From: Membranipora membranacea
Lineage: Eukaryota > Bryozoa > Gymnolaemata > Cheilostomatida > Membraniporidae
Assembly (NCBI GenBank): GCA_914767715.1
Contig: OU612075.1
Span: 1,178,001 to 1,242,000 of the forward strand
Direction: 5' to 3'
Length of the DNA stretch: 64,000 nt
Positions 7,757 through 48,767 of this stretch are shown piece after piece. Position 1 is the first letter of the stretch. Every line of letters starts with the position of its first letter. A program made the position numbers and the translations under genes. The notes under the pieces are model-generated. The model worked only from the letters and a program-made list of their open reading frames with translations. It was not told the DNA's origin and made no database searches.

Positions 7757-7819
7757 TTGCTCTCCTCCACTGATAAGCGTCAGGACTCCTGATTGCGGCT
7801 TATCAGTGGAGGGGAGCAA
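7757..7819. repeat. Fold-back in duplicon A
   Basis: Arms TTGCTCTCCTCCACTGATAA and TTATCAGTGGAGGGGAGCAA around a 21-bp loop. Orthologous copies: 12445-12507 (B), 63210-63272 (C) and a decayed one at about 55063-55127 (D). It therefore predates the duplications. Confidence 0.75.
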
Positions 7820-9863: not shown

Positions 9864-10290
9864 TTGGTTGCTAACTTGAAAATCCTCATCTACAAGACTG
9901 CTATACGGCCAGCTCTGGCGTATGGGAATGAGACCTGGCCCGTAACAGGAACCCTTATAGACAGGGTTAGCTCTTGTGAAATGCGAATGCTAAGGTACTG
10001 CATAGGGATAAGCTTAGAGGAACATCGAAGGAATGAAGAGATAACAGCCGAAGCAAATATAATGCCAATCAGGGATGTCATGAGGAAAAAGAGGCTAGAA
10101 TGGTATTGTCATGTTTGTCGACGTGAGAGTGATGAAGATATCAGGAGAGTGTACGAGATGAGGGTAGAGTGAAGCAGAGGGCGTGGACGGCCAAAACAGC
10201 TATGGAGTGACACAATCAATGCCGACCTTCGCTGGCTAGATCTAGAACAAGGTGATACAAGTGACCGAATAAGGTGGAGAAGTATGAGAT
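9864..10290 (+). pseudogene. LINE reverse transcriptase C-terminal fragment (in duplicon B)
   Basis: Same element as in A. MVANLKILIYKTAIRPALAY is intact up to a stop at 10170-10172 (in ...MRVE), then it is truncated at about 10290, where duplicon sequence resumes after a deletion. Confidence 0.8.
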
Positions 10291-11268
10291 TCCTAACAGA
10301 CTTCTCCAGTAAGCTTATATGTCACTATCTACAGAATAAAGACCAGATAAATTATCATAACTTTTACTAGCGCAAAGCTCAATAAGAGTTATGGCAGTTG
10401 TCTGCCCTGTGAATTGGCCAGTATGCGTTGTGCTACAGCCTGATATAACACGGAGCTACAGTGAGTATTAAAATATACTACTTTACAGCCTAGATCTAAT
10501 TATTCACCTTCCATCAGCTGTATCAGTAGTTTATCATACGATACTCATGGAACAAAGACAGACTTTGACGGTGCTGAGTCTGGGTAACTCTGAGAGGTCA
10601 AGAGGTGATCCTACCAGGCTCTTTGATGTCCTTTCTTATGTGGACCACTATACATGTTTGAGAAAAATGAGATCAGAAGTGACTCAGTGGAATAATCTAT
10701 GAGGGATTATATATCACACTTACTGGCGAATAGCTCTGATATCAGGTGATCCAGTAGAGGCTAATATACATTCTCTCAGTGGTATCCTTTGATTGGAATA
10801 TCTTCTCTGTGTGTTGTGTCGACACAAATCCTGAGTAACACTTAACTCTCAATGTAGAATTATCACAATTTTTTAGAATTCCCTGATGGACCCCATCTGA
10901 AATTAAATGCCACATTCAGCATACAATGGAATATGTGCTACTAGGGAATTCAAGGTTAAATTTTATTTGCATTGTGGGATTGATGTTAACATGCCATATT
11001 GTTCAATGATCAACGTGGAAAAAAAACAGCCATTCAACTGTATCCTTAAGACTTGCTTTCAGCTTTTGTTCTGTCCAATCATCAGAAAATATCCACATTA
11101 ACAATATTTGTTGCGATTTTACATTAGGCAATTGTTTAAATAATTTATGTTTCAAAGTCACATAGCTTATATTAACAAGCCTTGTTTGTGGTAGAGGGAA
11201 GGGGTCTCATCTCCCACAAGGCTTGTCAGTATATGTTGATAGCTGATATGTGACAAGTGCTTACAAAC

Positions 11269-11392
11269 CTTTCTGTTGGCCTTAGTGAAGACCACAGCAG
11301 TCCTGGTACCATATTAACGATTTCTGTGTGATGTCCATATATGACAGCTTCATCACTCAAGGTCATATATCTACAGTGTACTATACAGGCAT
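11269..11392 (-). pseudogene. Exon-like segment in duplicon B, acceptor mutated
   Basis: Same 124-nt segment as in A. The frame is open (DACIVHCRYMTLSDEAVIYG, GLLWSSLRPTER) but the acceptor reads TTTCGG instead of TTTCAG, so normal splicing is not expected. Confidence 0.35.
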
Positions 11393-14141
11393 CCGAAATT
11401 AAAGACATAATGTGGTAATTAATGATAATAGTTGTTTAATTCTCAATATTACTATACTGTACTATATATTGACTAGACATTAAGGATGTGGTCTTCATGT
11501 AGGTATGAACAGGCTTAGAGGGACATCAGTATATAAATAAGTAACGATGTATGGGATCTACACAAGGAGTTCCTAGAGCAGTTGGCATATCTTAACATGT
11601 AACTGATTTATTGAGCTTTGTCAGGTTGCCAGACAACTCATGACGTTTATAACTTGTGTAAATCAGCCTTCAATAATATGGAGTTGTTATCTCTCTGAAC
11701 TTCTACTTCAGAGAGTAAATAACTCCCATTTGTAGTAATATTGTGTAATAAGATTTAATATTCTATTAACAACCAAATTGCACCACATGTATACTACAAA
11801 GTATAACCAGTTATGATAGAATACTTTTGACTCTCTGCTGATATTCTTATGAGCTCTGACACAGCCAGCTGTGTCTGGTGATTTGGATTTCATGAACTCC
11901 ACACAAACTTCATCATCATTATACAATTAGCTGTAATATAAAGTGAAACATATAAGCTCTGACATCAGAATTAATGATCGGGTTTTCATAATTTTTATGT
12001 TTATTTGTATTTCATATTGTTTATGAGAACAAATTGCTGTGTGTTGTAGTTGACAGATTTAGTGATGTATGAGACGAGCCAAATCAAGTCATCCCATACA
12101 ACAGTAAATCAGTCAATAAACAATTAAAAATATAAGTAAAAGCACATGCTGACAAAAGAAAATCACACAACAGCGAATGTCAGAGAACTCCAGATAAGCG
12201 TACAGCAAAAAAACTGACAACTTATCCTGTCAGGTATGACAACATTACTTAGAAGGTGAGGAAGTGCTCACTATCCACATAAAATAGATACTATAAGGAT
12301 ATTGTGCAAATCCAGTGATCCAAAGCTACTGTATATACACTCCTAGGGTTCGGTCAGTGAGGTGGCTAGCCTCAATACTGTGGGATTATCATCACATAGG
12401 ATATATCTAAGACCAAGTTATATCTAGTTGTCCTGTATTCAGCATTGCTCTCCTCCACTGATAAGCTTCAGAACTCCGGATTGCGGCTTATCAGTGGAGG
12501 GGAGCAACCCCAAATACGGGCCATCTGTTATCTTGGCTAACTTGAGCTTTAACTACTGCTGCCACTCAGGGAAATACGTGCTTATCGCATTCTGTATAGC
12601 TCAAAACTAACAAAATGAGCAGTTTCACCCACTGGGCAAATAATTTGCACAAACTGACTGACAAAATCAGGATATACAATCAATGATCTAGCAGAAATAG
12701 TGGGTTTGATGACAGCAACACCTAGTGCATTGATTTCATACTCTGATTTTGACATCAGTTTGTGCAAATCATCAATTAGTTGTCTTTGACCTACACAGAG
12801 TCCACATAGCACACATTTCCCTGGATGGCAGCAGTATTTTAAGTATACTTGATCTAGGTATCGCTTACTTGGTTCTTACATGTCATGACAATGACAGCGT
12901 TTCATCGTATGATTCAGAATATCTCTTTTTCATACAAACTACAGACAACTCCTGATCTGAGCATCTCAATCCATCTCTGGTCTGTGTGCTGACCACATCA
13001 TTCATCAGCTAGAAGTTACAGAAAATGAGTAACAAATTAGAGTATAGCTCATGATAATTGGTCTTGTGTCATCTTTAGTCAAATCATCATGATAACATAT
13101 CTTAAGTTTGCAAAAAAGGTGAATTATATTTGTAACCTCTTGGAGAATAGGTCTGGAGGCTTACCTGTTCAGTATACACAATATGTACAGGTGAGCGGAG
13201 TGATAAAACATAACTGATTGACATAATACAGTATTTATGTTGTTACTCTTTTTATCACGCGATTTCAGGTCTGTTTACATTGATAAGCTTTATGTAATGT
13301 TAAGATATCAACAAATGGTGGCTAAGTGTCCTCATCATCTCACCAGTCTGAGTGTTGAGTCTGTAATGTAGCTGAGATATATAATATAAGTCACACACCT
13401 GTATAGAGATGGTGACTTGTCAGTAAAGTCTCTAGTATCAGAGTGTCTCTCTCAACTCTCTGGTGTGTGAGGTAACTTCCTGTTAGTGTAGCCTGAGATC
13501 TACAATATGGTTGCATAGCCTGACATCGCATCTCCTTTCTTCAATATTTGAGCTCTGCTGCTGTCTTCTTAGCTCAAGGAAACTTTCAATATCAACATAA
13601 AATCAGTGTGTCAAAACACTGGTGACCAACATGAGTAACATACAGTAAGACTTAGCATCAAGCTTCCATACACTTAGCTTGGTAATAGAAATATGTCACC
13701 TTGATGCGCTGATCAGGTACTTATTTCTATATTATCTACTCTCAATCTGTTAATCGGACAAAAGTATCGTGCAAATACAAATATGTCCAGACATGTAGTA
13801 CATGCTCTGGTGTGCTGACCAGATAGTCCCTTCTAAATTAGTGATGTAGCTGAATTTGAGATTAGCTAAATATATCTATCACCATAATTTCCTCAGGTGT
13901 TTGGTGAGTTTGTGCACTTTGTAAACCTACCTAACTTTACCTTCGGTAAGTGCCAATAAAGCCGTCTTATGAAATAAAGCGACTCAAACGACATTGCAAA
14001 AATTAAAGCTAACACCTATGTCAGCCAGCTTTTATAAAGTAAAACAGTTGAGTAAATATTCAGCTAGTTGGAAATTTCACTACTTCAATCATGTATGAAA
14101 AGGAAATTGTCTCCTCTTTTGAATACTTCAACCCTCTAGGG

Positions 14142-17054: not shown

Positions 17055-20000
17055 CTACAATGAAACCAAAAAGATTACATTGGAAAAAGATTTCAACAGT
17101 ACATTGACCTTTCAAAGTGTAAACAACCAGCTTCTGTAAAAATAATGGAGCGGCGTATTCTTCCCACCTTCAAAATTTTATTTAAGCCAAAGATATAATT
17201 TGGACTTTGGAGAGTGAGGTAAAAGTCCAGATCACATTGTGTTAAGCTATTTGTAGTTTGCTATTAGTTTTTACCTGGTAACCATTCTATAGTTGTGGTA
17301 GTATTACCATCAGGATATCTGGGATCTGTCAGAGATTGTGGATGTTCTCCAGCTCTTCTCATATTAACTCCAGGTCTGAGGTATAACTTTCTCAGGTCTG
17401 TGAGAGTAGATATCATCGTAGGCATCTGAGCTATGTAAGCTGCATTCAGACCAGGATTAGCTGCACGTAAAGCCTGTGTTTGCTCTACTCCATATCTACT
17501 GACAGCTTCTCTTACCTTTGTGTAGAAAATGAAAATTATACAAAAGACATCAATATGTAGACGGGACCATACGCTATACAATTCAAATATAAGCATAATC
17601 AAGTCGAGATCAAATGTTGATTTGGAATGTAAGGTCAATACATCTCACATCTGGTGTGGATGGCGTTCTCGTAGCTGAGGGTTTTTGTTGACCCTGACAG
17701 AATCAAGTTTTATATGGCAAGGTTTAACTCTCATTCAAGTTCACACACCTAGTACATATTAAATTAATGCGTTATAATACTCACTAGCTCCCACAAAGTT
17801 ACGATATCAAACTGTTCTGCAAACTTGTAGAGCGTTACGACCAGTGCTCTGATGAATGCCGATCCTGTTTCAGATGATCTGGGAGACACAAATGCTACAA
17901 AACAAGTATTCATTATGATGTTAACCTGATTACAATTGGCATTAAACCTGATTTTATGACATCACATAGATTGGGAGAGGGAAGTTGTGGAACAGATGAT
18001 TATAAATAGTTGATCAAGTAAATTGTGTAGAAAAGGCTCGAATTTGGACTCATATACTCTTGAATACCTTACTCCTTTTGTCATTTTTGTTAACAGCCAT
18101 TGTATGAGAGGAACTACCAAATATAAAATTTACTGTCAAAACTTGACTGCATAATTATCAGATCAGCCACTGATATTGTCTCATTGATACTGTCTACTTC
18201 AGGTAACAGCTGTATGACATCACTTCCTGTCCGATACAGATCTCCTTCTCTAGGTGCTGATGATGTCACTTCTAGATCAGATGTAGGGGGGAGAGGTTCA
18301 GGTGCAGCTGCACTCAGCTCCGAGATTGAAGGAACTGAGTCTGCGTTATCTAACAACATCTCTCTGCTACCTGTAAGGACGATCACAAGAAACTGATACC
18401 AGAACACAGTACTAAACATAGATCATATAGATAGACACATACACACAGTAATCTGGTGTTTTTAGTGTAAGTTGTATTGACCTACTAAATATGTATCAAA
18501 TCAGATCTCATTGATTTGTATGGAGCTGCTTACACTTGACTTCACAGTTGTCAGACCTGGGAGAGCAACTCCAAATTAGAACTATGAGTTCAGACTTGAT
18601 CGATATAGCAACATGGCAGAGCAGCATTGAGTAAATTTTACATATTTAATAGATCAAGTTTGATCCATTTGCCTGCGTTTGGAGTTGCCCCTCCTCTACG
18701 GCGGCGTGACCAGTATAGAGGGGCAACTCCAAACACAGGCAAATGGATCAAGCTTGATCTACATTATTACCATCAACAATCACACTTACAACATGTTTAA
18801 TATATATATCCAATACTCTCAAAGGCCCCATGTGTTGATGTTTGACAGCTTTCAAGATTGTGAAATATTTCAGATGCTGCTCATCACTTAACACGGGATA
18901 AACTTTACCTGGAGACCGTGGCTGGCTGCTCAAACTAAAGATAATATTTCACTTACTTCCAGCACAAGCTTGTATTACGATGAGTTTTGGTTTGCCCCGC
19001 ATGGCTGGGAAATTTCTTGCGGAGACCATCTTGCATATGTCTGTGAGCTTGACCAGTTTACTGTCCACACCTGCCACACAGCCTTCAGTGCCATGACTTG
19101 TGATCATCAGTACAAACACTCCGAGGTTCTTATAGACAGATTCTCCTGTTTCATCTACCAGTTGTGTCTCTCTGTGAATTGCCTCCACCATTTCCTGACA
19201 TATAAATCAAGTTGTGACATCAATAAGCTACACCTGCAAGGTTAACAACATTATCACAAAAAAATGTGTGTACGTGACAGGAAAGAGTATTTTTAGTTAC
19301 GGATAATGATTGCGTCTATAAGAAAGGTAAAGAAATAGATAAGTGAATGCAACTATATTTTACACTCATGTTAGATTTACACGATCAATACCTTTGCTGT
19401 GTAGTTCTGATGATCACCTACAACAACAAACCCAAGCTTCACCAAAAGATCTCTCATATTTCTGTAGTCATGTTCTGAGCCTTTCCTGTATAAGCCGTTG
19501 GGCAGTTTGTACTCATTAGATATTAGGAGTGCTCTCCCTCGTGTCTCAGTCATTGTATACTGAAAATAAAAGGCAAATATATAAGTATCAACACAATCTG
19601 TGTTTTGTTCATACTCGACTTAATAAATGATTGAGGCTGTGATAAATCAGCTGAAATCACAAAGTTTATCTTTCTTGTAAAATGATAAAAAGAATTTCTG
19701 AATATTGTGTAATTGATAGGGAGGGAGAATGTCCGTATGTAATTTTAAACATATGAGATACACAGCATCTTGCAAAAGATATAGTTATCACATTAAATAA
19801 CACAACAAAAAGACATAAAGATATACAGCTGGAGTCAGTGTAACCTGATTGGCTGAGAGTCCGACAGTATTTATCTGAGGGTCCTGAATTATAAGAGCTG
19901 GCTTCTCTCTCATTTCCTTCATTATCTCCTCAATCATTGCTCTGTCTACGGCTGCAGCGTCTAGAAGTGAGAAATCAAGATTACGATGAGTCTTGTGGTT

Positions 20001-23000
20001 TTTAGTAAGTGGATATGTTGTGTCACAATCTCAGCTATAACAAAACATAACACTGTAAACATATTGAGACAAAGATTTGTACATACGGTTAGAGGCTGAT
20101 GGTGCTGTATGATTCTGACCAGTATTTATCATTGCTGTTTGTGAAGGTCGAGAACTTTGACGATGTGGGATCGATCTCAGATAGTCCTTGATTTGTGTCT
20201 TCTCATCATCCGTCAACTCGAAACCTGTAAAATTGAAAATAAAGTTTATACTTATGTGCGCAAGTATTAAGAAAAGCCTTCTAGCATAAATTTTAAGTTT
20301 CCAAGAAATTCTCTGGATCTGATATTCCAGTGATAGAAAAGACTAACTTTGTAGTAAATACTGTTATAGATATAATTTAAGATAAAGGTATTCAATTAAA
20401 GTTATCTTCACTTGATATGCCCGAAAAAGCAAAAATACTTACTAGGATATCTGAGGGGAGAAGGGACTACAAGAGATCCTCCATTAGATCTGGCATTAAG
20501 GCATTCAACAGGCTCTACACCTGGGAAGGTCCTCAATCTATTTCTGAGTGGAGGGTCTGTGGCAGGGTCTGATGGTGGTGTGTACCAATCTGGATCTGTG
20601 TCACAGTCTGGTTCCTCTTCTCCTGTGTAGATACAGTGGGCACAAAAGAACTTACAGACGGGATGAGCAGCTACCCATACAGACTTCAGGTTCTTCATTA
20701 CCGCTTCTAAGACATCGATAGCTTGTTTCCAGCAGGATTCTAGCTGATCTACTGGGGTGTCAGAGTAGAGGAGAACTTCTCGCTTGTCGTGATTGTGAAG
20801 CAGTATTGTGATCTTCTGACCATGATGAACAAGTGCTCCATTCTTTGCAGCACGTATCTTGTACCTAGGGTCTGTGAACTGATTCAAGAATGCAACGACA
20901 AGCAAGTGGTAGACATAAGAGGGAGGGGTTAAACCAATAAACCGGATAGCCAGTTTAACTCTCAGAAGACCAGCTGTGGTGGGAAGGAGCTCAATGACAT
21001 CCGATGATAGGTACGGAATGATGAACTTATCTCTTAATGATGTTTTTATTGGTCCACAGATAAGGTAGAAAGTCTGCAGGAGACAGAGCGCCACATCTCT
21101 TGGGAATATCTGATTGTCATAGAGACTCATAAGAAGACACTCATCAAGGACTCCACTTCTTTTGAAGCATTCGACCATTGAGATGTACTTCTCAGCACTA
21201 ACTATCTTATTGCCAAACACAAAAGGCTCAAACTCATCAATACGTTGATCCCACATCTCCTCCCCTTTATGATCAAACAGGGTAGCTATCACTTCGGTGA
21301 TTGCAGATGTTTTGTGAAACACGATCCCCTTCAACATGTCCTCTTTTTCAAACCACATTAATCTGCCCTCATTGTGCATGTATCTAATGACGATCTCAAC
21401 ATGTTGTTCAGCTGGAAATTTGGCGAGAATGTCAGAAACATATATAAAGGGCATTTTGGCCTGATTCTCAATAAAACCGGCTATTTTCTCCCATATGAAA
21501 GGAATCTTCACGCTATGATCCAGGCACTTCTCAGACAATGCTTTGAGTAGAGCATAAATGCTATTGAGGTCATTTAAGTCATTGCTCACCACATATGTAT
21601 GCATAGCGCTGAATATTGTATTCCTCTTATTAGAAAAACACTCAATCTCCGAGATCAAGTTCTTTCTTCCTTGTGCTAGTGTCCTCTCCTCTTCAAGCAT
21701 CCTTGAACGTAGCTTTTCCACAGACTCCAGGAGCTCAGATTTCCGTAGATTAAAGCTTTCTATTGTTAGTTTGTCTCTGTGTGTGAGAACAAGGAACGGG
21801 GGTCCTAACCTCGGGCAGGAGATGTACAGGTGGGAGAGAAAATCTGTGCAAAGCTGTTGAGTGGCCTCTTCAATGTTCTTGGACCTGACTAGCTGGTCAA
21901 ACTGTTCCATATTCACTACAACAATAGGGATATAACTGGGCCTTATGGTGAGGTGATATGAGAGGTGATAAACTTTATCACCTCCCAAGTCAAACATTCT
22001 CAGCATATTCTCATCCATGGACACCTCATTGACTTCAAACACTCTTGTAGTCTCATCGTCCTCAGCAGGCTCATCTCTATGTGTGAGCTCTCGTGTCCGA
22101 CTCTTCAGACTTCTTATCAGACTAGTTTTTCCTGCCATTCTGTTCCCTATGACTGCTGCAGAAATGATCGGTCGCTTGACACCAGATTTCTCAGCTAGAT
22201 CTGTGTAGTATTTCCTGATTGCAGGTAATCCTTGTTCACAGACTGCATATGGAGGTGATTTGAGATTAAAACATCCATCACAGTCCAGCTCTATCAGGTT
22301 TGGTAAGTCTATCACTGCTGGATGAAGCGCCCTTAGAGAATCTATCACAATCAAATTCAGATGTGTGAGAGACTTCAGTCTGGTCACAACAGCAGGCAGT
22401 GATTTGAATTCGTTGAATCTGAGATATAACTTCTCTAGTCTTATAAGACTATCCAGGCTATAAAAGACAGAATAAGAATAGATGAAATTGAGAGGAAGTC
22501 AATAAAGCAATTAGAGACAAAACAATAATCTGTATACAATAATGTAGGTGACACTAAAATGGGGAGTGACAGACTGACACATTTGATGTTAAAACTCGGT
22601 GTTAAAATTGCAGACACAACTGCCATAGCTGCACCTGTACTTCATCTTGAGTAAATGGTAGAATTGACCCGATTTGAATATTGACATAAATCTCAGTGGA
22701 TTGCGGTTGTCTGATCTTAGGAGTTTTCACCCATTATAGTTTTCCCTCATTATTGAACGGATGATGATGCACTTTATTATGAGAGTGATCATTAGAGCAG
22801 GTCACTTACATTTGGAAAATGTATATTCTCCTTTTATATTTTGATCACTTGTTATTTGGAAAACGTATATTTGAATCTAAGTCCACAGTTAGTGTTGTGA
22901 TTGATCTGAAATCTTATCACCATGTAATTTTAAGGAATTTAATTATATTTATATTTATATACATCTTATGCTCAAACTACTTAATTGAACCAGAATTTAC

Positions 23001-26000
23001 ACGTTTAATTTGATACTATCTATATAATATATTATGGTAAATAATATTAAGATAAACACATATAAAAACGATCCAGCTTAAAATTTAGTACACAAACTAC
23101 AAAGGTCAGTCTAAATGACTTCTTCAAGAAATTTTTTTCAACTTATATTAATGCAATATTTTTAGTAATTCAAAACAATCCTCCATTTAAAGCAATAAAA
23201 TAATACACCTGGAATTATTCTGTTGGCAAAATTGTCTGCTTATTCCCTGACTCCTTCCTACACTGTATTTTATTGTATTCGATGAGGTATATATTTAACC
23301 ATATATTTCGATATATTTGAATTGTCATAGATCTACATAACTTCAAACACCTATTTCTTACAGAATATAGGGCAAATCTTTGGTGAATCGAAAATATGAG
23401 AACAATGCTGTAAGCTAAAATAAAGGAATGTTTATATTCTGCTCCCAATATGGTCCACATGAGTTTTTGCAGGACTTAGGTCTCATCTGATTATCAAGGG
23501 ACGTCGACAAACACGACAAACTGAACCACAGGAAATTTCACTATTGGAAATAGGAGTCAGGAGTGGTCTAAATGTTAATGGTGTGGACTTGTGATCTGTG
23601 GCGTCCGAATTCAATGCAGAATACCTCACACCTCACATGCAGTGAAAAGATCCCCTTCTGGTTTTTCTATACACTTTTACATTCCTCATATTCTTTTTAT
23701 ATTACTCTTTGTTATCCCTCGCCCATGCAACAGTATAAACACCCAATTTTCTCAGCATGACAAAAGAAACCAACAAATCAAAGAATTACCAGATCTTCCA
23801 CGGGCAAGGGTATGGAGCCCGGCTCAAGTACCATGGGTCCAAGCACCTGTATCCTAGAAGGAATAGCTCTCTCCACATTGAACACTTAGACTTAGACCAT
23901 GAAAACTAAATTTAAAATTTCTCTATATTGATTTAACTAAACTGGTCAAATTTAAGATCAAATAAAATCAGGAAGCAGGCATGACAATGCCATTAAACTT
24001 ATCCTTTTATAACCAAAAAATATTTCAAGCTAGCAAAACGAAGTCTACGAAGCCTTAATTTTAACAATGGGGGGATAAAAACATAACTAATAAACATTAT
24101 GGTTCATTTGATTTAATTAGCATGAAGAAAGGAAATATAACGAAAATCCTCAATCTCCCCACCATCCCATCCCCGCACCTCCCCCCCCCCCCCGCCATTT
24201 TTCAGCCTGTCAATACAACATACCAAACTTTATTGTTGACTTCGCTGTATATTTTGCATGTTGATGACTGGTAAATTGGTAAAAGAAATGCATCTATTAA
24301 ATTTGCTGGCTCAGCCAAGGATAGCCTGTCAATATTATTATGTATTGTTAAGATGTAAAATGTTCAAGTTTCCTGACACATCTCATAGTATATTTTTAAA
24401 CACAAAATTAAATTAAAATATTAGAAAATTTAATTTTACTCAATAAAATCATAATGGATGCCGTAGTTCAGTGTTTTATCGATTGTTGTATCTATCACAG
24501 GACCAGGTTGAGACTTCACCAGTCATCTTTTTTAGGACCGTCAAAATTTCCTATTCTAATTTAAATGCCCCTGCAAACCGCTGACAGTGTGGTGAACAAA
24601 TTGTATCCCTTTCTGTCTGATATAAACATCATTACTAACAGAACTGATCCTATAAGAGCCTCATGAGTCAAAAATTGAAACTGATAGAGTGTAAAGTTTT
24701 AAAATTGTGGATAATATATTCTTCTGGATCCCTCCTATCTTTTTATACAGCCTCACAAATGAAAAATTGAACTTCAGAAAATAAGCAATGAGGGAAAAAC
24801 ATTCAAACTTATCTGAAGCTCTTATCTATTGAGATACACACACCAGACTCACCTGTCATCTAGAGATGATAGATTACAGCGAGTCAGATAGAGCACTCTG
24901 AGGGACGTAAGACTGTATATAACAGGAGGCAGACCACCCACTGAGAAGTTACTACCTTCTATCCACAGCTCCTCCAGCTGACTAAGCTTAGACAGTCTGT
25001 AAAATATGTACAAAATAATATTATATATAATCAATCAGTACATGATACAAGATACAAGATTTCCAATATTTCTCATAATGTATCATCAAATATCACATTA
25101 TATTACACAGTTACTCCATCTATCTTAGTCTATCAAATATAATTAGCCAGTAATTGATTTTTCTATGTCCCATTGCTATCATAATATAGTAATCAAATAA
25201 TCTGGACATATTATGTCTAAATTATCTATATTTGATTATAAGAATATCATATATCATGTTATCTCTTTTACAGTTAGGTAATTTGAAAATGAGACTTTGT
25301 TAAAATGATAAACCAGGAAGGCGTGTTATGGTGGATACCAGGCTGGGTTGAGGTGAGATCATTTGACAATTTGTTCCCAGTCGGGACAATTTTAAAATTG
25401 TAAATGCACAATTGGTGCGGCAGTTTAGGTAAAGTTCAAGTATTTTCAAAAACACAAATTGGGTATGGAGCGCGGTTCAAGTACCATGGGAACAGCTCTC
25501 TCCACATTGAACACTTAGACTTAGACCATGAAAACTAAATTTAAAACTTCTCTATATTGATTTAACTAAACTGGTCAGATTTAAGATCAAATAAAATCGG
25601 GAAGCAGGCATGACAATGCCATTAAACTTACCCTTTTATAACCAAAAAATATAAAAAAAATTCATTAGCTAGCAAAACAAAGTCTACAAAGCCTTAATTT
25701 TAATTAGGGGGGATAAAAACATAACTAATAAACATTATGGTTCATTCATTTGAATTAATTAGCATGGAGAAAGGAAATATAATGAAAATCCTCAATCTTC
25801 CCCATCCCATCCCCCCGCCATTTTTCAGCCTGTCAATACAACATACCAAACTTTATTGTTGACTTTGCTGTATATTTTGCGTGTTGATGACTGGTAAATT
25901 GGTAAAAGAAATGCATCTATTAAATTTGCTGGCTCAGCCAAAGATAGCCTGTCAATATTATTATGTATTGTTAAGATGTAAAATTTCAAGTTTCCTGACA

Positions 26001-29000
26001 CATCTTATAGTATATTTTCAAACACCAAATTACATTAAAAAATTAGAAACTTTAATTTTACTCCATAAAATCATAATGGATGCCGTAGTTCAATGTTTTA
26101 TTGATTGTTGTATCTATCACAGGACCAGGTTGAGACTTCACCAGTCATCTTTTTAGGACCGTCAAATTTTCCTATTCTAATTTAAATGCCCCTGCAAACC
26201 GCTGACAGTGTGGTGAACAAATTGTATCCCTTTCTGTCTGATATAAACATCATTACTAACAGAACTGATCCTATAAGAGCCTCATGAGTCAAAAATTGAA
26301 ACTGATAGAGTGTAAAGTTTTAAAATTGTGGATAATATATTCTTCTGGAACCCTCCTATCTTTTTATACAGCCTCACAAATGAAAAATTGAACTTCAGAA
26401 AATAAGCAATGAGGGAAAAACCATTCAAACTTATCTGAAGCTCTTATCTATTGAGATACACACACCAGACTCACCTGTCATCTAGAGATGATAGCTTACA
26501 GACAGACAGATCGAGCACTCTGAGGGAGGTAAGACTGGATATAACAGGAGGCAGACCACCAACTGAGAAGTTATTATAGTTTATATGCAGCTCCTCCAGC
26601 TGACTAAGCTTAGACAGTCTGTAAAATATGTACAAAATATTATTATATATAATCAATCAGTACATGATACAAGATTTCCAATATTTCTCATAATGTATCA
26701 TCAAATATCACATTATATTACACAGTTACTCCATCTATCTTAGTCTATCAAATATAATTAGCCAGTAATTGATTTTTCCATGTCCCATTGCTATCATAAT
26801 ATAGTAATCAAATAATCTGGACATATTATGTCTAAATTATCTATATTTGATTATAAGAATATCATATATCATGTTATCTCTTTTACAGTTAGGTAATTTG
26901 AAAATGAGACTTTGTTGAAATGATAAACCAGGAAGGCGTGTTATGGTGGATACCAGGCTGGGTTGAGGTGAGATCATTTGACAATTTGTTCCCAGTCGGG
27001 ACAATTTTTAAATTGTAAATGCACAATTGGTGCGGCAGTTTAGGTAAAGTTCAAGTATTTTCAAAAACACAAATTGGGTATGGAGCGCGGTTCAAGTACC
27101 ATGGGAACAGCTCTCTCCACATTGAACGCTTAGACTTAGACCATGAAAACTAAATTTAAAACTTCTCTATATTGATTTAACTAAACTGGTCAGATTTAAG
27201 ATCAAATAAAATTGGGAAGCAGGCATGACAATGCCATTAAACTTACCCTTTTATAACCAAAAAATATAAAAAAAATTCATTAGCTAGCAAAACAAAGTCT
27301 ACAAAGCCTTAATTTTAATTAGGGGGGATAAAAACATAACTAATAAACATTATGGTTCATTCATTTGAATTAATTAGCATGGAGAAAGGAAATATAATGA
27401 AAATCCTCAATCTTCCCCATCCCATCCCCCCGCCATTTTTCAGCCTGTCAATACAACATACCAAACTTTATTGTTGACTTTGCTGTATATTTTGCGTGTT
27501 GATGACTGGTAAATTGGTAAAAGAAATGCATCTATCAAATTTGCTGGCTCAGCCCAAGATAGCCTGTCAATATTATTATGTATTGTTAAGATGTAAAATG
27601 TTTAAGTTTCCTGACACATCTTATAGTATATTTTCAAACACCAAATTACATTAAAAAATTAGAAACTTTAATTTTACTCCATAAAATCATAATGGATGCC
27701 GTAGTTCAATGTTTTATTGATTGTTGTATCTATCACAGGACCAGGTTGAGACTTCACCAGTCATCTTTTTAGGACCGTCAAATTTTCCTATTCTAATTTA
27801 AATGCCCCTGCAAACCGCTGACAGTGTGGTGAACAAATTGTATCCCTTTCTGTCTGATATAAACATCATTACTAACAGAACTGATCCTATAAGAGCCTCA
27901 TGAGTCAAAAATTGAAACTGATAGAGTGTAAAGTTTTAAAATTGTGGATAATATATTCTTCTGGAACCCTCCTACCTTTTTATACAGCCTCACAAATGAA
28001 AAATTGAACTTCAGAAAATAACCAATGAGGGACAAACCATTCAAACTTATCTGAAGCTCTTATCTATTGAGATACACACACCAGACTCACCTGTCATCTA
28101 ATGATGATAGCTGACATTCAGACAGACTCAGCACTCTGAGGGAGGTAAGACTGGATATAACAGGAGGCAGACCACCCACTGAGAAGTTATTACAGTCTAT
28201 ACGCAGCCCCTCCAGCTGACTAAGCTTAGACAGTCTGTAAAATATGTACAAAATAATATTATATATAATCAATCAGTACATGATACAAGATACAAGATTT
28301 CCAATATTTCTCATAATGTATCATCAAATATCACATTATATTACACAGTTACTCCATCTATCTTAGTCTATCAAATATAATTAGCCAGTAATTGATTTTT
28401 CTATGTCCCATTGCTATCATAATATAGTAATCAAATAATCTGGACATATTATGTCTAAATTATCTATATTTGATTATAAGAATATCATATATCATGTTAT
28501 CTCTTTTTCAGTTAGGTAATTTGAAAATGAGACTTTGTTGAAATGATAAACCAGGAAGGCGTGTTATGGTGGATACCAGACTGGGTTGAGGTGAGATCAT
28601 TTGACAATTTGTTCCCAGTCGGGACAATTTTAAAATTGTAAATGCACAATTGGTGCGGCAGTTTAGGTAAAGTTCAAGTATTTTCAAAAACACAAATTGG
28701 GTATGGAGCGCGGTTCAAGTACCATGGGAACAGCTCTCTCCACATTGAACACTTAGACTTAGACCATGAAAACTAAATTTAAAACTTCTCTATATTGATT
28801 TAACTAAACTGGTCAGATTTAAGATCAAATAAAATCGGGAAGCAGGCATGACAATGCCATTAAACTTACCCTTTTATAACCAAAAAATATAAAAAAAATT
28901 CATTAGCTAGCAAAACAAAGTCTACAAAGCCTTAATTTTAATTAGGGGGGATAAAAACATAACTAATAAACATTATGGTTCATTCATTTGAATTAATTAG

Positions 29001-32000
29001 CATGGAGAAAGGAAATATAATGAAAATCCTCAATCTTCCCCATCCCATCCCCCCCGCCATTTTTCAGCCTGTCAATACGACATACCAAACTTTATTGTTG
29101 ACTTTGCTGTATATTTTGCGTGTTGATGACTGGTAAATTGGTAAAAGAAATGCATCTATCAAATTTGCTGGCTCAGCCCAAGATAGCCTGTCAATATTAT
29201 TATGTTTTGTTAAGATGTAAAATGTTTAAGTTTCCTGACACATCTTATAGTATATTTTCAAACACCAAATTACATTAAAAAATTAGAAATTTTAATTTTT
29301 CTCCATAAAATCATAATGGATGCCGTAGTTCAATGTTTTATTGATTGTTGTATCTATCACAGGACCAGGTTGAGACTTCACCAGTTATCTTTTTAGGACC
29401 GTCAAATTTTCCTATTCTAATTTAAATGCCCCTGCAAACCGCTGACAGTGTGGTGAACAAATTGTATCCCTTTCTGTCTGATATAAACATCATTACTAAC
29501 AGAACTGATCCTATAAGAGCCTCATGAGTCAAAAATTGAAACTGACAGAGTGTAAAGTTTTAAAATTGTGGATAATATATTCTTCTGGAACCCTCCTATC
29601 TTTTTATACAGCCTCACAAATGAAAAATTGAATTTCAGAAAATAAGCAATGAGGGAAAAACCATTCAAACATATCTGAAGCTCTTATCTATTGAGATACA
29701 CACACACCAGACTCACCTGTCATCTAGTGATGATAGCTTACAGTGAGACAGACTCAGCACTCTGAGGGAGGTAAGACTGGATATAACAGGAGGCAGACCA
29801 CCCACTGAGAAGTTATTACCTGTTATCCACAGCTCCTCCAGCTGACTAAGCTTAGACAGTCTGTGAAATATGTACAAAATAATATTATATATAATCAATC
29901 AGTACATGATACAAGATACAAGATTTCCAATATTTCTCATAATGTATCATCAAATATCACATAATATTACACAGTTACTCCATCTATCTTAGTCTATCAA
30001 ATATAATTAGCCAGTAATTGATTTTTCTATGTCCCATTGCTATCATAATGTACTAATCAAATAATTTGGACATATTATGTCTAAATTAGCTATATTTGAT
30101 TATAACAATATCATATATCATGTTATCTCTTTTACAGTTAGGTAATTTGAAAATAAGACTTTGTTTAAATGATAAATCAGGAAGGCGTGTTATGGTGGAT
30201 ACCAGGCTGGGTTGAAGTGAGATCATTTGACAATTTGTCCCCAGTCGGGACAATTTTAATATTGTGAATACACAATTGGTGCGGCAGTTTAGGTAAAGTT
30301 TAGTAAGGTAAAGTATTTTCAAAAACACAAATTGCTGCATTCACAGCTGATCAATTAATTAAAAATAAAGAGCTGATCAATTAATTAAAAATAAAGATAC
30401 CAATATAACAATGCACTACTAGTTCTACTCACCCTGTAAGTGATCCACCGGTATACCTCAGATAGAGATATGTAAGATGAGGAGCTATAGACCTCAGACT
30501 ATCAGGTACATCAGTGTCCTCTATAAACATGTGAGTAATAGAGTGAGATCCTACTCTACTCTTTATCTCACTGATAGTCTGAAGCTCGGTAGTAACTATG
30601 ATCTCATCAGCCTCACCTCTACGTCTGATACGCAGATTACCATACCTTGCTAATCCTGCTGATACACTCTCTAACTCTGCCTCTCCGCTGTGTCTGTACC
30701 AGACTCTATATTCTATAATATAATAATATTAATCATATATAATCAGTGATGTCATCCTAATAAGGTCTTGTTAATGTGTAATCTGGTATTAATCAGATTA
30801 TACTGATAATCATCTTGTCCCTTGTGATATGATATGATTATGGGCTCTTAGCATCTTATGATGTATGAGATCAAAACTCCTAACATTATATTAAGGTTTT
30901 TCTGTACAGCCTGACACTTCCTGGTATAAGCAATTGCTGTGGTGATGGTCTTACCAGGACGTTGGTAGGTTATATAATAATTTATTGGCTTCTGTATAGA
31001 AATAACCAACATACAATTTGACTGTCTGTTTTCCATACTGAAAATATAATTGCGTGCAAATGACTAAATAATCTTGCGAGATGGGAGCATACCCTATTGA
31101 TTTTACAAGCTCAAGATTCAGAATCATCATATCTTGTTGAGTTCAAAATGGAAATTCAATTTCCATCTGTCTACTTAGCTCCAAAATGAGATCTGCCTTT
31201 TATTGCCCCAAACCTAGTGAGATTCCCCTGAGTAAAGTACAGGGGGTCGTAATAGTGAAGAGATTATTTTTGTCGTTATGATGCTTGTATATCAACAGAT
31301 GCTCATATTCTGCTGAGATCGAAGCTAGTATGAGCGGGGGGCGGGGGGTGATACTAAGCTGGTATAAGCGGGGGGATACTAAGCTAGTGTGAGCGGGGAG
31401 ATACTAAGCTGGTATGAGCGGGGGGATACTAAGCTGGCATGAGTGGGGGGGGGATACTAAGCTGGTATGAGCGGAGGGGGATACTAAGCTGGTATGAGCG
31501 GGGGGATACTATGCTGGTATGAGCGGGGGGGATACTAAGCTGGTATGAGCGGGCGGGGGATACTAAGCTGGTATGAGCAGGGGGATACTAAGCTGGTAAA
31601 AGCGGGCGGGGGATACTAAGCTGGTATGAGCGGGCGGGGGATACTAAGCTGGTATGAGTGGGGGGGGGGGGGGTACTAAGCTGATATGAGCGGGTGGGGG
31701 ATACTAAGCTGGTATGAGCGGAGGGGGGATACTAAGCTGGTATGAGCGGAGGGGGGATACTAAGCTGGTATGAGCGGAGGGGGGATACTAAGCTGGTATG
31801 AGTGGGGGGGAGATACTAAGCTGGTATGAGCGGGCGGGGGATACTAAGCTGGTATGAGCGGAGGGGGGATACTAAGCTGGTATGAGCGGAGGGGGGATAC
31901 TAAGCTGGTATGAGCGGAGGGGGGATACTAAGCTGGTATGAGCGGGGGGGATACTAAGCTGGTATGAGCGGAGGGGGGATACTAAGCTGGTATGAGCGGA

Positions 32001-32171
32001 GGGGGGATACTAAGCTGGTATGAGCGGAGGGGGGATACTAAGCTGGTATGAGCGGAGGGGGGATACTAAGCTGGTATGAGCGGGGGGGATACTAAGCTGG
32101 TATTAGCAAAAAGTTTGTGGTTACTTACTTTTACTCTTCCTCTTGAAAAACTGTTTCACTGCACCGAGCAT
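16867..32171 (-). CDS. LRR-Roc-COR-caspase fusion protein (whole gene, 15 coding exons)
   Basis: Coding exons (minus strand, in order): 32171-32129, 30712-30433, 29860-29717, 28234-28091, 26618-26475, 24996-24853, 22457-20443, 20224-20087, 19960-19845, 19559-19392, 19194-18957, 18370-18134, 17894-17785, 17515-17275, 17054-16867. Every junction is GT-AG except for uncertainty at the exon 9 donor, and every phase matches. The joined reading frame is 4,350 nt, 1,449 aa plus stop. Domain order: short basic N-terminus; LRRs (about residues 80-400); Roc GTPase (about 400-600); COR (about 620-880); linker; caspase p20 (from about 1057) and p10; Arg/Pro-rich tail. Family knowledge: Roco proteins use the Roc-COR pair as a GTP-dependent dimerising switch; caspases are Cys proteases of cell death and inflammation. 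A Roco module placed N-terminal to a caspase is not an architecture I know. Alternative: two neighbouring genes, with a caspase starting at the Met in exon 10; continuous phases and the lack of a terminator or promoter-like break argue against this. An acceptor (TGCTTTCAG) lies 5 nt before the ATG, so a 5' non-coding exon probably exists upstream. Confidence 0.8.
17275..17515 (-). CDS. Exon 14 of Roco-caspase: end of caspase p10 and start of tail
   Basis: 241 nt, phase 0 in, 1 out. It begins VREAVSRYGVEQTQALRAAN and contains AQMPTMISTLTDLRKLYLRP, which matches the C-terminal caspase signature (QMP...STL...LYF/L). After the caspase fold it continues into a hydrophilic tail ending NTTTTIEWLPG. 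The acceptor is ACAAAG with a mixed pyrimidine tract; the phase fit and QMP motif fix the frame. Confidence 0.88.
17785..17894 (-). CDS. Exon 13 of Roco-caspase: caspase p10 substrate loop
   Basis: 110 nt, phase 1 in, 0 out (donor CTA/GTGAGT). It encodes FVSPRSSETGSAFIRALVVT and LYKFAEQFDIVTLWEL. The Ser-x-Arg of the p10 substrate loop (usually SWR) is kept as SPR, but the Trp is Pro, and the family's GSWFI is GSAFI. The missing aromatic residues should alter the S2/S4 pocket. Confidence 0.9.
18134..18370 (-). CDS. Exon 12 of Roco-caspase: p20-p10 linker and first p10 strand
   Basis: 237 nt, phase 1-1, acceptor CTTACAG, donor GACA/GTAAAT. It continues QACAG-SSREMLLDNADSVPS and then a long (about 65 aa) Ser/Pro/Asp-rich intersubunit linker holding several Asp residues (DNAD, SDLE, EVDS) where self-cleavage could occur. 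It ends in VADLIIMQSSFD, the strand that begins the p10 subunit. The linker is longer than in many effector caspases. Confidence 0.85.
18651..18760. mobile_element. Fold-back element in the intron between caspase exons 11 and 12
   Basis: Inverted arms AGATCAAGTTTGATCC... and ...GGATCAAGCTTGATCT, about 45 bp each, carrying TTTGGAGTTGCCCCTC, around a short GC-rich loop. No clear target duplication was seen. A fragment of a similar arm (GGAGCAACTCCAAA) occurs at 32307. Confidence 0.7.
18957..19194 (-). CDS. Exon 11 of Roco-caspase: caspase p20 with catalytic His and Cys
   Basis: 238 nt, phase 0 in, 1 out (donor GGAA/GTAAGT). It encodes VFVLMITSHGTEG with the catalytic His (~residue 1146) and KPKLIVIQACAG with the catalytic Cys (~1189) in the canonical QACxG box. 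The His-Cys spacing of 43 residues fits the family. Both catalytic residues are present, so an active protease is expected. Metacaspases and paracaspases lack this QACxG setting together with the SHG and substrate-Arg pattern, so this is a true metazoan-type caspase. Confidence 0.95.
19392..19559 (-). CDS. Exon 10 of Roco-caspase: caspase p20, N-terminal part
   Basis: 168 nt, phase 0-0, acceptor TTTTCAG, donor AAAG/GTATTG, exactly 56 codons. It encodes YTMTETRGRALLISNEYKLP, matching the caspase opening (YxMxxxxRGxALxIxN), then LYRKGSEHD, where the conserved substrate-binding Arg of caspases (R-x-G-x-x-x-D) is kept, and LLVKLGFVVVGDHQNYTAK, the usual LGF-V beta strand and the N-T/Y-TA motif. 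The in-frame Met in YTM could in principle start a separate shorter caspase. Confidence 0.92.
19845..19960 (-). CDS. Exon 9 of Roco-caspase: pre-caspase helix
   Basis: Acceptor CTTCTAG, phase 1 in. It encodes a charged helical stretch (DRAMIEEIMKEMREKPALII) followed by QDPQINTVGLSANQ. The donor is uncertain: CAG/GTTACA ends the exon at 19845, GCT/GTATAT ends it at 19827; both are phase 0, and the second adds six residues (VTLTPA). The segment sits just before the caspase fold, where a prodomain-to-p20 linker would be. Confidence 0.6.
20087..20224 (-). CDS. Exon 8 of Roco-caspase: linker
   Basis: 138 nt, phase 1 in and 1 out, acceptor TTTTACAG, donor AACC/GTATGT. It encodes a linker starting FELTDDEKTQIKDYLRSIPH, then a Ser/Gln/Asn-rich segment. 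The first 20 residues could be a helix; no CARD, DED or death domain can be recognised. It joins the COR side to the caspase side in frame. Confidence 0.65.
20443..22457 (-). CDS. Exon 7 of Roco-caspase: last LRRs, Roc GTPase and COR domain
   Basis: One 2,015-nt exon, phase 2 in, phase 1 out (donor CCTA/GTAAGT). It opens with LRRs (RLEKLYLRFNEFKSLP, LKSLTHLNLI). The Roc GTPase follows: P-loop GNRMAGKTS (residues ~404-412 of the joined protein), G3 motif DLGGD (~456) and G4 motif THRDK (~525), the THxD form usual in Roc domains. The COR domain runs about 620-880 (VKIPFIWEKI through LCLLQTFYLICGP). After it comes a Cys/His cluster (CKFFCAHC) and an acidic, Pro-rich stretch. A kinase domain, as in LRRK proteins, is absent. 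All GTP-binding motifs look intact, so it should bind nucleotide. This exon alone supports the Roco assignment. Confidence 0.93.
22458..23807. other. Intron 6, unique AT-rich part
   Basis: The 1.35 kb between the Roc-COR exon and the first LRR unit. It is AT-rich with scattered short open frames on both strands; no domain, splice-bounded exon or repeat was recognised. Confidence 0.6.
24853..24996 (-). CDS. Exon 6 of Roco-caspase: LRR exon (unit 1, last before Roc-COR exon)
   Basis: 144 nt, phase 2-2. It encodes LSKLSQLEELWIEGSNF and LRVLYLTRCNLSSLDD. It also has PVIYSLTS where the sisters have PVISSLTS. It splices to exon 7 across an intron of about 2.4 kb, creating a natural LRR join (LSSLDD-SLDSLIRLEKLYL). 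Its genomic unit (23808-25460) is the most diverged of the four outside the exon, so it is probably the oldest copy. Confidence 0.85.
26475..26618 (-). CDS. Exon 5 of Roco-caspase: LRR exon (unit 2)
   Basis: 144 nt, phase 2-2, donor GTGAGT, acceptor TTTTACAG. It encodes LSKLSQLEELHINYNNF and LRVLDLSVCKLSSLDD. The shared core SVGGLPPVISSLTSLRVL is kept, while exposed positions (HINY, DLSVCK) differ from every other copy. Confidence 0.85.
28091..28234 (-). CDS. Exon 4 of Roco-caspase: LRR exon (unit 3)
   Basis: Same 144-nt phase 2-2 exon as its sisters. It encodes LSKLSQLEGLRIDCNNF and LRVLSLSECQLSSLDD. It differs from exon 5 at about 13 of 144 nt, seven of them changing amino acids, whereas adjacent intron sequence over several hundred bases differs by about 1 percent (hand count). 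The Glu-to-Gly change in LEGL is unique to this copy. Confidence 0.85.
29717..29860 (-). CDS. Exon 3 of Roco-caspase: LRR exon (unit 4 of the tandem array)
   Basis: 144 nt, phase 2-2, acceptor TTTCACAG, donor ACAG/GTGAGT. It encodes 48 aa, about two leucine-rich repeats: LSKLSQLEELWITGNNF then SLTSLRVLSLSHCKLSSLDD. The exon length is a multiple of three and both junctions share phase, so it can be gained, lost or skipped without a frameshift. Compared with its sister exons, changes fall around LEELxIxxNN and LRVLxLSxCxL, which are the exposed LRR beta-strand positions. Confidence 0.85.
30433..30712 (-). CDS. Exon 2 of Roco-caspase: N-terminal domain leading into first LRR
   Basis: 280 nt, phase 1 in and phase 2 out, between acceptor TTATAG and donor GG/GTGAGT. 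The frame is open throughout and starts KYRVWYRHSGEAELE. The first ~55 residues are rich in charge and predicted alpha/beta, of no recognised family. The last ~30 residues (from DSLRSIAPHLTYLYLRYTGG) have LRR spacing (L..L.L) and flow directly into the LRR exons. It lies outside the 1.62-kb repeated units and is single copy in this window. Confidence 0.72.
31323..32106. repeat. G-rich minisatellite in intron 1 of Roco-caspase
   Basis: About 30 imperfect copies of a 24-31 bp unit of the form GATACTAAGCTGGTATGAGC followed by a G-rich spacer of 5-15 bases (GGGGGG, GGAGGGGGG, GGGCGGGGG). Variation is mainly in the G run. The plus strand is G-rich, hence the pre-mRNA is C-rich. It has G-quadruplex potential and is likely length-variable between individuals. 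Confidence 0.95.
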
Positions 32172-44257: not shown

Positions 44258-46067
44258 CCCAGCCGGCAAGGTTTAGCCAGCAACCTTCTTTAGAGGTTGC
44301 CAATGGGCAGCTTTATTGTTAGCCAAGATCCTCTGACATCACCTGTCTTTGATAGGTATGCCAGAGGGAACCAGATATCCCATTTCCAAGCAACAGATAT
44401 AATTGGTTGTAGATGCTTCTGCTTTTATACTCTATTTTCTTGCCATTGGCGGTAGCAGAAATAACTTTTCTGGACTGACAACTCATAGTTAACACTCAAA
44501 TATTAATATATTCACCATCTATTAGTGTGGCTCCAGCATGAGAACAGTTTACTCCCCATTGTTTTCGACAGGGCTCTCAACCACTCAGGTTTAGCCCGAG
44601 TTACACAGATTTTTGGGTTCAACTCAGGCTAGTCAGGGGATTTTAGAATGTAAGCTAAAATCTCAGATTTTGCTCGTTGGCAGATATGAATAATATATAA
44701 ACAATGCTAAATGTTGCCTTACAATAATTTATGCCATATTATTAATGAATGATCAGGTATTAGATTCTAGTTGTGATAAGCTATGTAAATAATACTGCAC
44801 TGCCTATACTTATAATGCCTCTCACTGCACTCACTGTAATAATACTCTCACTGCACTGCCTATTCAAGTCATTTCTAAATTCCAATTTGCATTTGAGAAT
44901 GCTTTTAAAAAATCTAGTCTCTAATTTGAATACAATAATAAGTATAATAAAGTTCATTTATGAAACGCTATTTGAAATTGTTTGAAAACAATGATTTCTA
45001 AGCGTTATAGAATATCAACACTTTACACCCCATACAGAGATGAATAATAAAGATAACATCAAACTTCTGCATGAGAATAATGTGTGGTATTTGTTGTGAG
45101 TATTTGATTTCATTTGTGATAAGCTATGCTCTTATTGAACTGCCAATCCCAGAGATTTGCGAAATAGATTACTATGGCTAAATAGAAATTGGAATTTTAG
45201 ACATGTTAAAAAAGTGATTGTGCAGGTGAACCGGATAAATCCAGGCAATGATTTCAATAGCATCCATTGAATTCCATATCTGGAATAGCATCATTAGCTT
45301 TCTTTTGCAAAACAAAGGGCTTGCAAAAATAGCCAGTCCCTAGTAGCAATCTAGAAATGCCCTAATCATCGACACTGTAGGGGTATAATAACTGTTTGCA
45401 ATTTTGTAAACAAGACAATTTCTCAGGCTAATTATTCATGCTACTAGGGACAGCCAATCAGATAACAGTCAGATGGGTCCCTGTGTTTAGTGTCCTAACC
45501 GTATAACGCTATGATACTATTTCCATTCTAAGAGAAGAATCTAATTCAGTGATAGCATCACATTACATTAATTATGCCTTTCTACCCTAAAGCCTCGATT
45601 TGTCAGCCTTTAAATCAATATGTTTACAAACATCATATTTTAACACCATGGGGATTCATTTTCACCTGTGGTGACGGCCTTGGTTAGTCCATATGTATTG
45701 GTTCATCTGGATCAAATCTAAAATTATTTACAATTTTATGTTTACAAGAAATGCTCTAGGTTTTTATTGATTTACTTGCTATCACAAACATGAAATGTTG
45801 CGCGAAAAGGATGCATATACTTTGTCAATAAAGGAGCTTGCTCTTAATATCAAAATTGGATAGAGACAGTTAATAATATCCCTGATATATCCTTCCCTGA
45901 GAAGGATATAAAACCTCTATTTAACTTCTTGAAGAGGTTGCTAAAAATTCTTTTTTGGCAACCTCTTCCACCGGTCCATATGGCATACAATTGGCTACAG
46001 CGTTCAGCCTCTTCCTCTTCCGGTAACCTCTTTCCAACTCAGTTTAGACAACTATTTGCCCTCTGGG
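44258..46067. mobile_element. 1.5-kb presence/absence element (duplicon III copy, with a nested MITE)
   Basis: Same element as 35026-36534, interrupted at 45264/45265 by a 287-bp MITE. The inverted ends are conserved. Confidence 0.6.
45265..45551 (+). mobile_element. 287-bp MITE, forward copy, 8-bp target duplication
   Basis: Ends CATTGAATT / AATTCAGTG, flanked by ATAGCATC (45257-45264 and 45552-45559). The empty site is present in duplicon I at about 36029. The 8-bp duplication is hAT-like. Confidence 0.92.
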
Positions 46068-46510: not shown

Positions 46511-46797
46511 CACTGAATTAGATTCTTCTCTTAGAATGGAAATAGTATCATAGCGTTATACGGTTAGGACACTAAACACAGGGACCCATCTGACTGTTAT
46601 CTGATTGGCTGTCCCTAGTAGCATGAATAATTAGCCTGAGAAATTGTCTTGTTTACAAAATTGCAAACAGTTATTATACCCCTACAGTGTCGATGATTAG
46701 GGCATTTCTAGATTGCTACTAGGGACTGGCTATTTTTGCAAGCCCTTTGTTTTGCAAAAGAAAGCTAATGATGCTATTCCAGATATGGAATTCAATG
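46511..46797 (-). mobile_element. 287-bp MITE, inverted copy, 8-bp target duplication
   Basis: Near-identical reverse complement of 45265-45551. Flanked by CAGCTGAA (46503-46510 and 46798-46805); duplicon I shows the empty site GACAGCTGAATGATTG at about 36942. Confidence 0.92.
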
Positions 46798-48760: not shown

Positions 48761-48767
48761 TATAGTA

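Follow-up and report, generated by a model that had tools for sequence, protein, structure and literature searches.

The LRR-ROCO GTPase genes of the brown alga Ectocarpus siliculosus are mostly clustered and carry their leucine-rich repeats (LRRs) on exons of 72 nucleotides (nt; 24 amino acids), one LRR to an exon, and both exon shuffling and a role in immunity have been suggested for them (PMC4104024, cited in part, as are the other sources below). In the NLR-B30.2 genes of zebrafish, most of which lie on one chromosome arm, each group has a homogenised signalling domain, whereas the recognition domain moves between groups and evolves under positive selection, with short tracts said to combine variants (PMC4852459). 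These two families appear to be the closest precedents of the one described here from the bryozoan Membranipora membranacea, for which we analysed a stretch of 64,000 nt (assembly GCA_914767715.1, contig OU612075.1, positions 1,178,001 to 1,242,000 of the forward strand), referred to as the window. On its minus strand the window carries a gene with LRRs, a predicted Roc GTPase, a COR domain and a caspase, and four of its LRR exons, called cassettes below, form a tandem array. We propose, with a probability of about three in four, that this gene represents a clustered set of LRR-Roc-COR-caspase receptors in which diversifying selection acts on the concave LRR face and gene conversion reshuffles it.

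Like the algal genes, the bryozoan genes are clustered, follow the order LRR-Roc-COR and bear LRRs on in-phase repeated exons. They differ in that the cassette has 144 nt and encodes 48 amino acids, that is, two LRRs in place of the single LRR on 72 nt, and also in belonging to an animal, in their C-terminal caspase, in the homogenised introns around diversified exons, and in LRR ends that are common to two bodies. The algal LRRs are reportedly also under diversifying selection, a finding ascribed to Zambounis et al. in 2012. With the zebrafish genes the family shares the split between a homogenised signalling part and an exchanged, selected recognition domain; however, zebrafish has NACHT where the bryozoan has Roc-COR, and the diversified face in the fish is B30.2, not the LRRs. 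We know of no caspase fused to the zebrafish proteins. The order LRR-Roc-COR is also that of MFHAS1, and NCBI names several relatives from the bryozoan Watersipora as MFHAS1 homologs, but the bryozoan genes differ from MFHAS1 in being a large family, in having a caspase and in the hypervariability of their LRRs. MFHAS1 is the simplest arrangement, with LRRs before ROC-COR, and is said in the cited part of the source to occur only in deuterostomes (PMC4104024). All four domains (Pfam LRR, Roc, COR and Peptidase_C14) are joined in one predicted protein of the amphioxus Branchiostoma floridae (P0053), and the LRR-Roc-COR-caspase fusion is therefore not unique to bryozoans. The combination of alike introns and divergent exons is known from major histocompatibility complex genes. 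It is also found among viperid three-finger toxin genes, whose paralogs have alike intron segments and divergent exon segments; these, however, encode secreted venom proteins, and their segment switching is of unknown origin (PMC2474615). Among the open-licence PMC matches listed, judged by titles and abstract openings, none concerned ROCO-caspase or hypervariable LRR genes in bryozoans, and the combination of an animal ROCO-caspase family and two-LRR cassettes of hypervariable sequence was absent from these matches.

A preliminary description of the window had reported four tandem units whose LRR exons are hypervariable while their introns are nearly identical. The array and its cassettes, each with AG/GTGAGT borders and an open frame, are as follows.

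23860..30300, minus strand: tandem array of ~1.62-kb units, each a cassette with homogenised introns
29717..29860, minus strand: LRR cassette exon 1 (unit 4, highest coordinate), two LRRs, 48 amino acids
28091..28234, minus strand: LRR cassette exon 2 (unit 3)
26475..26618, minus strand: LRR cassette exon 3 (unit 2)
24853..24996, minus strand: LRR cassette exon 4 (unit 1, lowest coordinate), Pfam LRR_4 match at 4.1e-6

All four exons are 144 nt long and of symmetric phase (1 nt, 47 codons and 2 nt), so that each cassette can be added in frame. The reported contrast was borne out, since the exons differed pairwise at 11 to 19 of 144 positions while the 200 bp on either side differed at 0 to 6. 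Between units 2 and 3 we counted 13 differences in 144 (9.0%), with seven amino-acid changes taken from the translations, in agreement with the earlier figures, against 13 in 1522 (0.85%) in the flanking intron (Fisher p = 3.5e-8); in a sliding-window scan of this pair, the densest 144-column window overlapped the exon, and its 13 differences were reached in 0 of 5000 shuffles. The estimate of about 1 percent for adjacent intron fits this pair but not the introns uniformly, as parts of the outer introns of the array are 4-5% divergent: the downstream intron of unit 1 differed from other units at 43/1004 to 53/1005 positions, and the upstream intron of unit 4 at 20 to 23 positions in 464 to 471.

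The Roc-COR open reading frame (ORF) has at least 64 matches in the genome (64 candidates scored of 261). Eleven Roc-COR paralogs lie within 0.9 Mb on chromosome 11 and share the LRR-Roc-COR-caspase plan of the window's gene, with the caspase motifs SHG and QAC[AG]G present in 11 of 11. In these clustered genes we found 36 cassettes, 35 of which are open and bordered by AG and GTGAGT; the remaining one, the partial exon I3 (1443283-1443426 of the chromosome 11 contig), has a second half that is not LRR and is intron-like in appearance, and it was excluded before all cassette counts. No two of the 35 encode the same peptide; 34 have 144 nt and one (A2) has 141 nt, and each comprises two LRRs. 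Gaps between family loci, such as 636336-639557 and 722264-730141 of chromosome 11, may hide more cassettes. The start of the cassette exon (first 24 nt) was as conserved as intron in genes A, C and E, where the diversity was confined to two blocks, LxxLxIxxNxF and LxLxxCxL. In the remaining genes this stretch was variable (0.10).

The positions of an LRR that are expected to be exposed are the x of the general consensus LxxLxLxxNxL. We took 12 such positions from this consensus, called exposed below, and compared them with the other 35 codons across the 35 cassettes, using the proportions of nonsynonymous (pN) and synonymous (pS) differences. The exposed codons gave a pN of 0.338 and a pS of 0.116, a ratio of 2.91 (95% ranges 2.21-4.38 by gene bootstrap and 2.12-4.87 by codon bootstrap), while the other codons gave 0.044 and 0.116, a ratio of 0.38 (gene bootstrap 95% 0.32-0.45), and the pN of the exposed set was reached by 0 of 20000 random sets of 12 codons. 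The same split was found in the window's four cassettes (3.80 exposed, 0.14 rest) and in gene A (4.22 and 0.54). Codon 13 encoded nine amino acids with zero synonymous differences, and variation of the exposed codons at positions 1, 2 and 3 was 0.40, 0.31 and 0.18. The three LRRs of the Roc exon varied at the same x positions as the cassettes in the 11 genes. Of the 55 gene pairs, 25 had an overall pS < 0.25; among these, the nonsynonymous-to-synonymous rate ratio (dN/dS) exceeded 1 in the LRR part of this exon in 19, whereas in COR it was 0.12-0.93 and at most 0.65 in 23. These codon comparisons show diversifying selection on the predicted LRR face, as the preliminary description had supposed. 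Seventeen further Roc-COR paralogs, from a larger number of matches on contig C9 (L021-L037), have LRRs that are also variable at exposed positions, and in 39 close pairs among them pN/pS was 1.39 in the LRR part and 0.34 in Roc-COR.

We compared the divergence of cassettes with that of their flanks. Exon divergence exceeded flank divergence in 29 of the 46 within-gene cassette pairs, and in 20 of 20 where the flanks differed by less than 4%. Cassette pN (0.107-0.138) and pS (0.084-0.126) changed little across bins of flank divergence averaging 0.8% to 32%, and cassette divergence is thus nearly independent of flank divergence. In the pairwise homoplasy index (PHI) test, the statistic lay below all of 5000 permutations (43 sites, 35 cassettes), and with one site per codon p was at most 0.05 in 20 of 20 random picks. 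The left and right hypervariable blocks were uncorrelated (rho 0.01); right-block DNA was identical in 8 pairs versus 1.06 expected (p 0.0002) and left-block DNA in 2 versus 0.30 (p 0.03), and several of these pairs differed in the other half and had flanks up to 32% apart. A similar picture emerged between genes. Gene C, on the opposite strand and ~0.42 Mb from the window's gene, has an array ~95% identical to that of the latter, with 64% amino-acid identity in Roc-COR. The 11 genes fall into two subfamilies. Over the LRRs and the beginning of Roc, nucleotide identity is 87-93% between the subfamilies and 86-98% within them, but past about residue 160 it is 50-80% between and 96-100% within; since the LRR ends are as alike between as within subfamilies, one LRR repertoire is common to two bodies. 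The apparent exchange of sequence among cassettes is well supported by these comparisons. The exon-focused gene conversion suggested earlier as an alternative to selection agrees with them in that the cassettes are mosaic, but conversion strictly confined to exons was not shown. Under simple conversion, synonymous variation in the cassette should exceed variation in the intron, and by segregating sites the window's gene had such an excess (5/~30 vs 19/590, p 0.004). We set this measure aside as proof of conversion, as it was significant in the window's gene only.

Several observations weigh against this interpretation. Gene C showed no synonymous excess (p 1.0), gene A by itself (p 0.09) and genes A, C and E combined (p 0.053) only a weak one, and in the 13 cassettes of A, C and E the PHI test gave p <= 0.05 in only 60% of picks. 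Gene C alone had an exposed pN/pS of only 1.65 (0.55 for the rest), and the LRR part of the Roc exon was not above 1 in 6 of 25 gene pairs. The cassette pairs lack independence, and tree-based tests are biased by recombination. The alignments had already been viewed when the 12 exposed positions were written down; however, 3 of the 12 proved nearly or fully invariant, and thus the set was not fitted to the data. Across the whole exon pN/pS was 1.09 (gene bootstrap 0.97-1.27), because the almost invariant framework dilutes the signal, and this ratio was judged uninformative as a test. The preliminary description had counted a ratio near 1, and likewise equal divergence of intron and exon, as signs against its reading; the former was formally observed for the whole exon but disappeared once codons were split by position, and the latter was not seen in the window's array but was present in three units of another array.

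That array is a related one on contig C8 (18.31-18.33 Mb, L069-L071), with three near-identical units at a spacing of 2.29 kb. The three units lacked diversification, another point on the unfavorable side: their exons differed at 0-1 of 135 positions and their flanks at 2-4 of 500, with zero amino-acid change. Two further C8 exons encode peptides that differ from those of the three units, and by one residue from each other. As exon and flank divergence are equal in the three compared C8 units, tandem arrangement, genome and assembly alone do not yield the pattern of the window. A second tandem array lies in the window itself (48767-52832). It has three ~1.62-kb units, of which the last is incomplete, and a 15-bp minisatellite; an LRR exon was not found in it. 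Two of its units differed at 52 of 1608 positions in local clusters of change. These noncoding units (48767-52004) also reached 13 differences in one 144-column window, though on this higher background, a further unfavorable point; one such window is therefore insufficient alone, and the case rests on the codon pattern and on the data from the family. Owing to its minisatellite, its clusters of change and the 13/144 window in two units, this array was rejected as a neutral control, and C8 was used instead.

Could the pattern arise without selection on a recognition surface? If exons were swapped from a donor pool and introns were not, and the divergence were old and neutral, exon pS would be nearly independent of intron divergence and cassettes would be mosaic, as was found; yet in the pool itself pN/pS is 2.9 for the exposed codons and 0.38 for the rest, and nine amino acids at codon 13 with no synonymous difference are hard to reconcile with neutrality, so that we regard this account as improbable. 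Hypermutation targeted to the exon, by an AID-like (activation-induced deaminase) process or a diversity-generating retroelement, would fit the 6.5- to 16-fold excess of exon pN and pS over flank divergence where the flanks differ by less than 2%. It was rejected on codon position and target pattern and has only a very slim chance of being correct: in A, C and E the exon begins with 24 nt that behave like intron, the framework codons have a pN/pS of 0.38, variation of the exposed codons is greater at positions 1 and 2 than at position 3, and the codon lists contain changes among all bases. Ordinary neutral duplication with conserved, functional introns could draw on the cassette flanks of genes A, C and E, which differ by only 0.8-4.5% between genes, but between the window's cassettes and those of genes F and K the flanks are 15-36% divergent, and the introns of the window's array are thus not specially constrained; in addition, exon divergence equals flank divergence in the three C8 units, and the split between exposed and other positions contradicts such a history, which we find hardly credible. 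An assembly artefact or contamination from a kelp host is almost out of the question. Although the specimen grew on the brown alga Undaria (PMC10290214) and brown algae have exon-modular LRR-ROCO genes (PMC4104024), the scaffold is of chromosome scale, the nearest named relatives are bryozoan, the 35 cassettes are open with intact splice sites, and a caspase domain is present.

Two other accounts were considered. In mutually exclusive splicing of the Dscam type, the cassettes would be alternatives diversified for isoform choice, and the symmetric phase of all 35 would permit it; predicted Watersipora proteins, however, hold 3 to 6 cassettes of similar length consecutively (4 in P0019, 6 in P0045, 3 in P0046 and 3 in P0048), which makes this account quite improbable. 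In the other, allorecognition replaces pathogen recognition, the LRR face distinguishing self from non-self tissue where colonies meet and the caspase driving rejection. The animal is colonial, and bryozoans are named among colonial animals with allo-incompatibility (PMC8195603); the clustering of the genes and the difference of every cassette from every other would also suit this role. An LRR-Roc-COR-caspase protein appears cytosolic, however. To our knowledge, the animal allorecognition receptors described are membrane proteins, and we consider this account unlikely, if worth keeping in view. Pathogen recognition is the likelier role of the two, with allorecognition possible in a colonial animal.

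The remaining exons of the window's gene were modeled as follows, with splice positions outside the cassettes placed by eye.

30433..30712, minus strand: upstream exon, N-terminal cap ahead of the LRRs; N termini of Watersipora P0044 and P0048 similar by eye
20443..22457, minus strand: large exon with three more LRRs, Roc GTPase (P-loop GNRMAGKT) and COR
20087..20224, minus strand: probable linker exon, from its position and its likeness by eye to Watersipora P0022
19392..19559, minus strand: caspase p20 exon a
18957..19194, minus strand: caspase p20 exon b, bearing the catalytic residues His (SHG) and Cys (QACAG)
18134..18370, minus strand: caspase interdomain linker and start of p10
17785..17894, minus strand: caspase p10 exon b
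17264..17515, minus strand: caspase p10 exon c and C terminus with stop

The gene's first exon, upstream of the N-cap exon, was not located; a G-rich 28-bp minisatellite of 28 copies (31343-32107) lies ~0.6 kb upstream of the N-cap exon. Roc has the P-loop GNRMAGKTS and a switch II of DLGGD (DxGG), and residues G118, G123, K124, T125, S126, D170, G172 and G173 were invariant across 26 aligned sequences. Its Pfam match had an E value of 5.3e-5 but, at 23.9 bits, fell below the 27-bit cutoff, and the COR-A match alone was weak (18.4 bits, cutoff 35.3). An AlphaFold2 model of LRR-Roc-COR had a predicted local distance difference test score (pLDDT) of 87; its best Foldseek match was 6hlu, the LRR-Roc-COR of a Roco protein from C. 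tepidum (Chlorobium), with E 4.8e-21 and a template modeling (TM) score of 0.49 by query, and the RocCOR structure 3dpu gave a TM score of 0.68 by target. On this model, a COR domain is predicted to follow Roc, which gives the LRR-Roc-COR order of ROCO proteins. The caspase region, whose exons were joined by eye before the search, matched Pfam PF00656 (Peptidase C14) with E 7e-29 and 101.6 bits (cutoff 21.4), and its best PDB match was CED-3 (2.6e-12); with p20 and p10 parts and a His-Cys dyad, it is a predicted protease. No NACHT or NB-ARC match was found at E <= 0.1 in the 696-amino-acid ORF or in the joined LRR and caspase parts. Thus the protein, probably intracellular, may work like a nucleotide-binding LRR receptor (NLR), yet is not an NLR on present evidence.

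The nearest named relatives of the window's protein are bryozoan, from Watersipora subatra and Bugula neritina. The predicted Watersipora proteins P0019, P0045, P0046 and P0048 have tandem LRR cassettes of ~47 amino acids before Roc-COR, and P0044 and P0046 also carry a caspase domain. Elsewhere in the window, copies of a dispersed repeat that are 92-93% alike lie at 5621-9487, 10288-14141 and 61330-64000, each beside an ORF (4635-4934, 9861-10172 and 60760-61311) that presumably resembles a fragment of a reverse transcriptase from a retroelement. A perfect inverted repeat of 287 bp occupies 45265-45551 and 46511-46797, and an Rfam search of the window gave 0 matches.

We propose that each 144-nt cassette adds two LRRs to the receptor. 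Selection, as the pN/pS values show, holds the LRR framework fixed and favors change at the predicted solvent-exposed concave positions. Ectopic recombination or gene conversion would homogenise introns and signalling bodies and reassort short LRR segments among genes; we invoke it because of the mosaic cassettes, the decoupling of exon distance from intron distance, and the LRR ends common to two divergent bodies. Exon diversity would persist since copies with a distinct surface are favored. The concave face may bind variable non-self ligands, whether of pathogens or allogeneic, and the likeness of the cassettes' role to that of immune LRR receptors, also drawn in the preliminary description, is to be understood in this sense. 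Roc-COR may switch or dimerise, ROCO proteins being described as probable functional dimers in the cited part of PMC4104024, and the fused caspase, activated by proximity, would lead to cell death or to inflammatory cleavage or signalling.

A bolder picture, to which we would give somewhat short of even odds, is that of a bryozoan repertoire of inflammasomes in one protein, built on Roc-COR and not on NACHT, in which interchangeable two-repeat cassettes pass by short-tract conversion between at least two divergent bodies, each ending in its own caspase. It would be the animal counterpart, reached independently, of the exon-shuffled brown-algal LRR-ROCO genes, and might act in defence against pathogens or in allorecognition between colonies. 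The family points to named residues at which binding would be expected and has a direct path from sensor to predicted protease in one chain. It also offers a natural experiment on the joint action of selection and gene conversion, for which an LRR array of this genome that has not diversified provides a comparison, and through the family the immunity and allorecognition of a colonial animal would become testable at defined loci.

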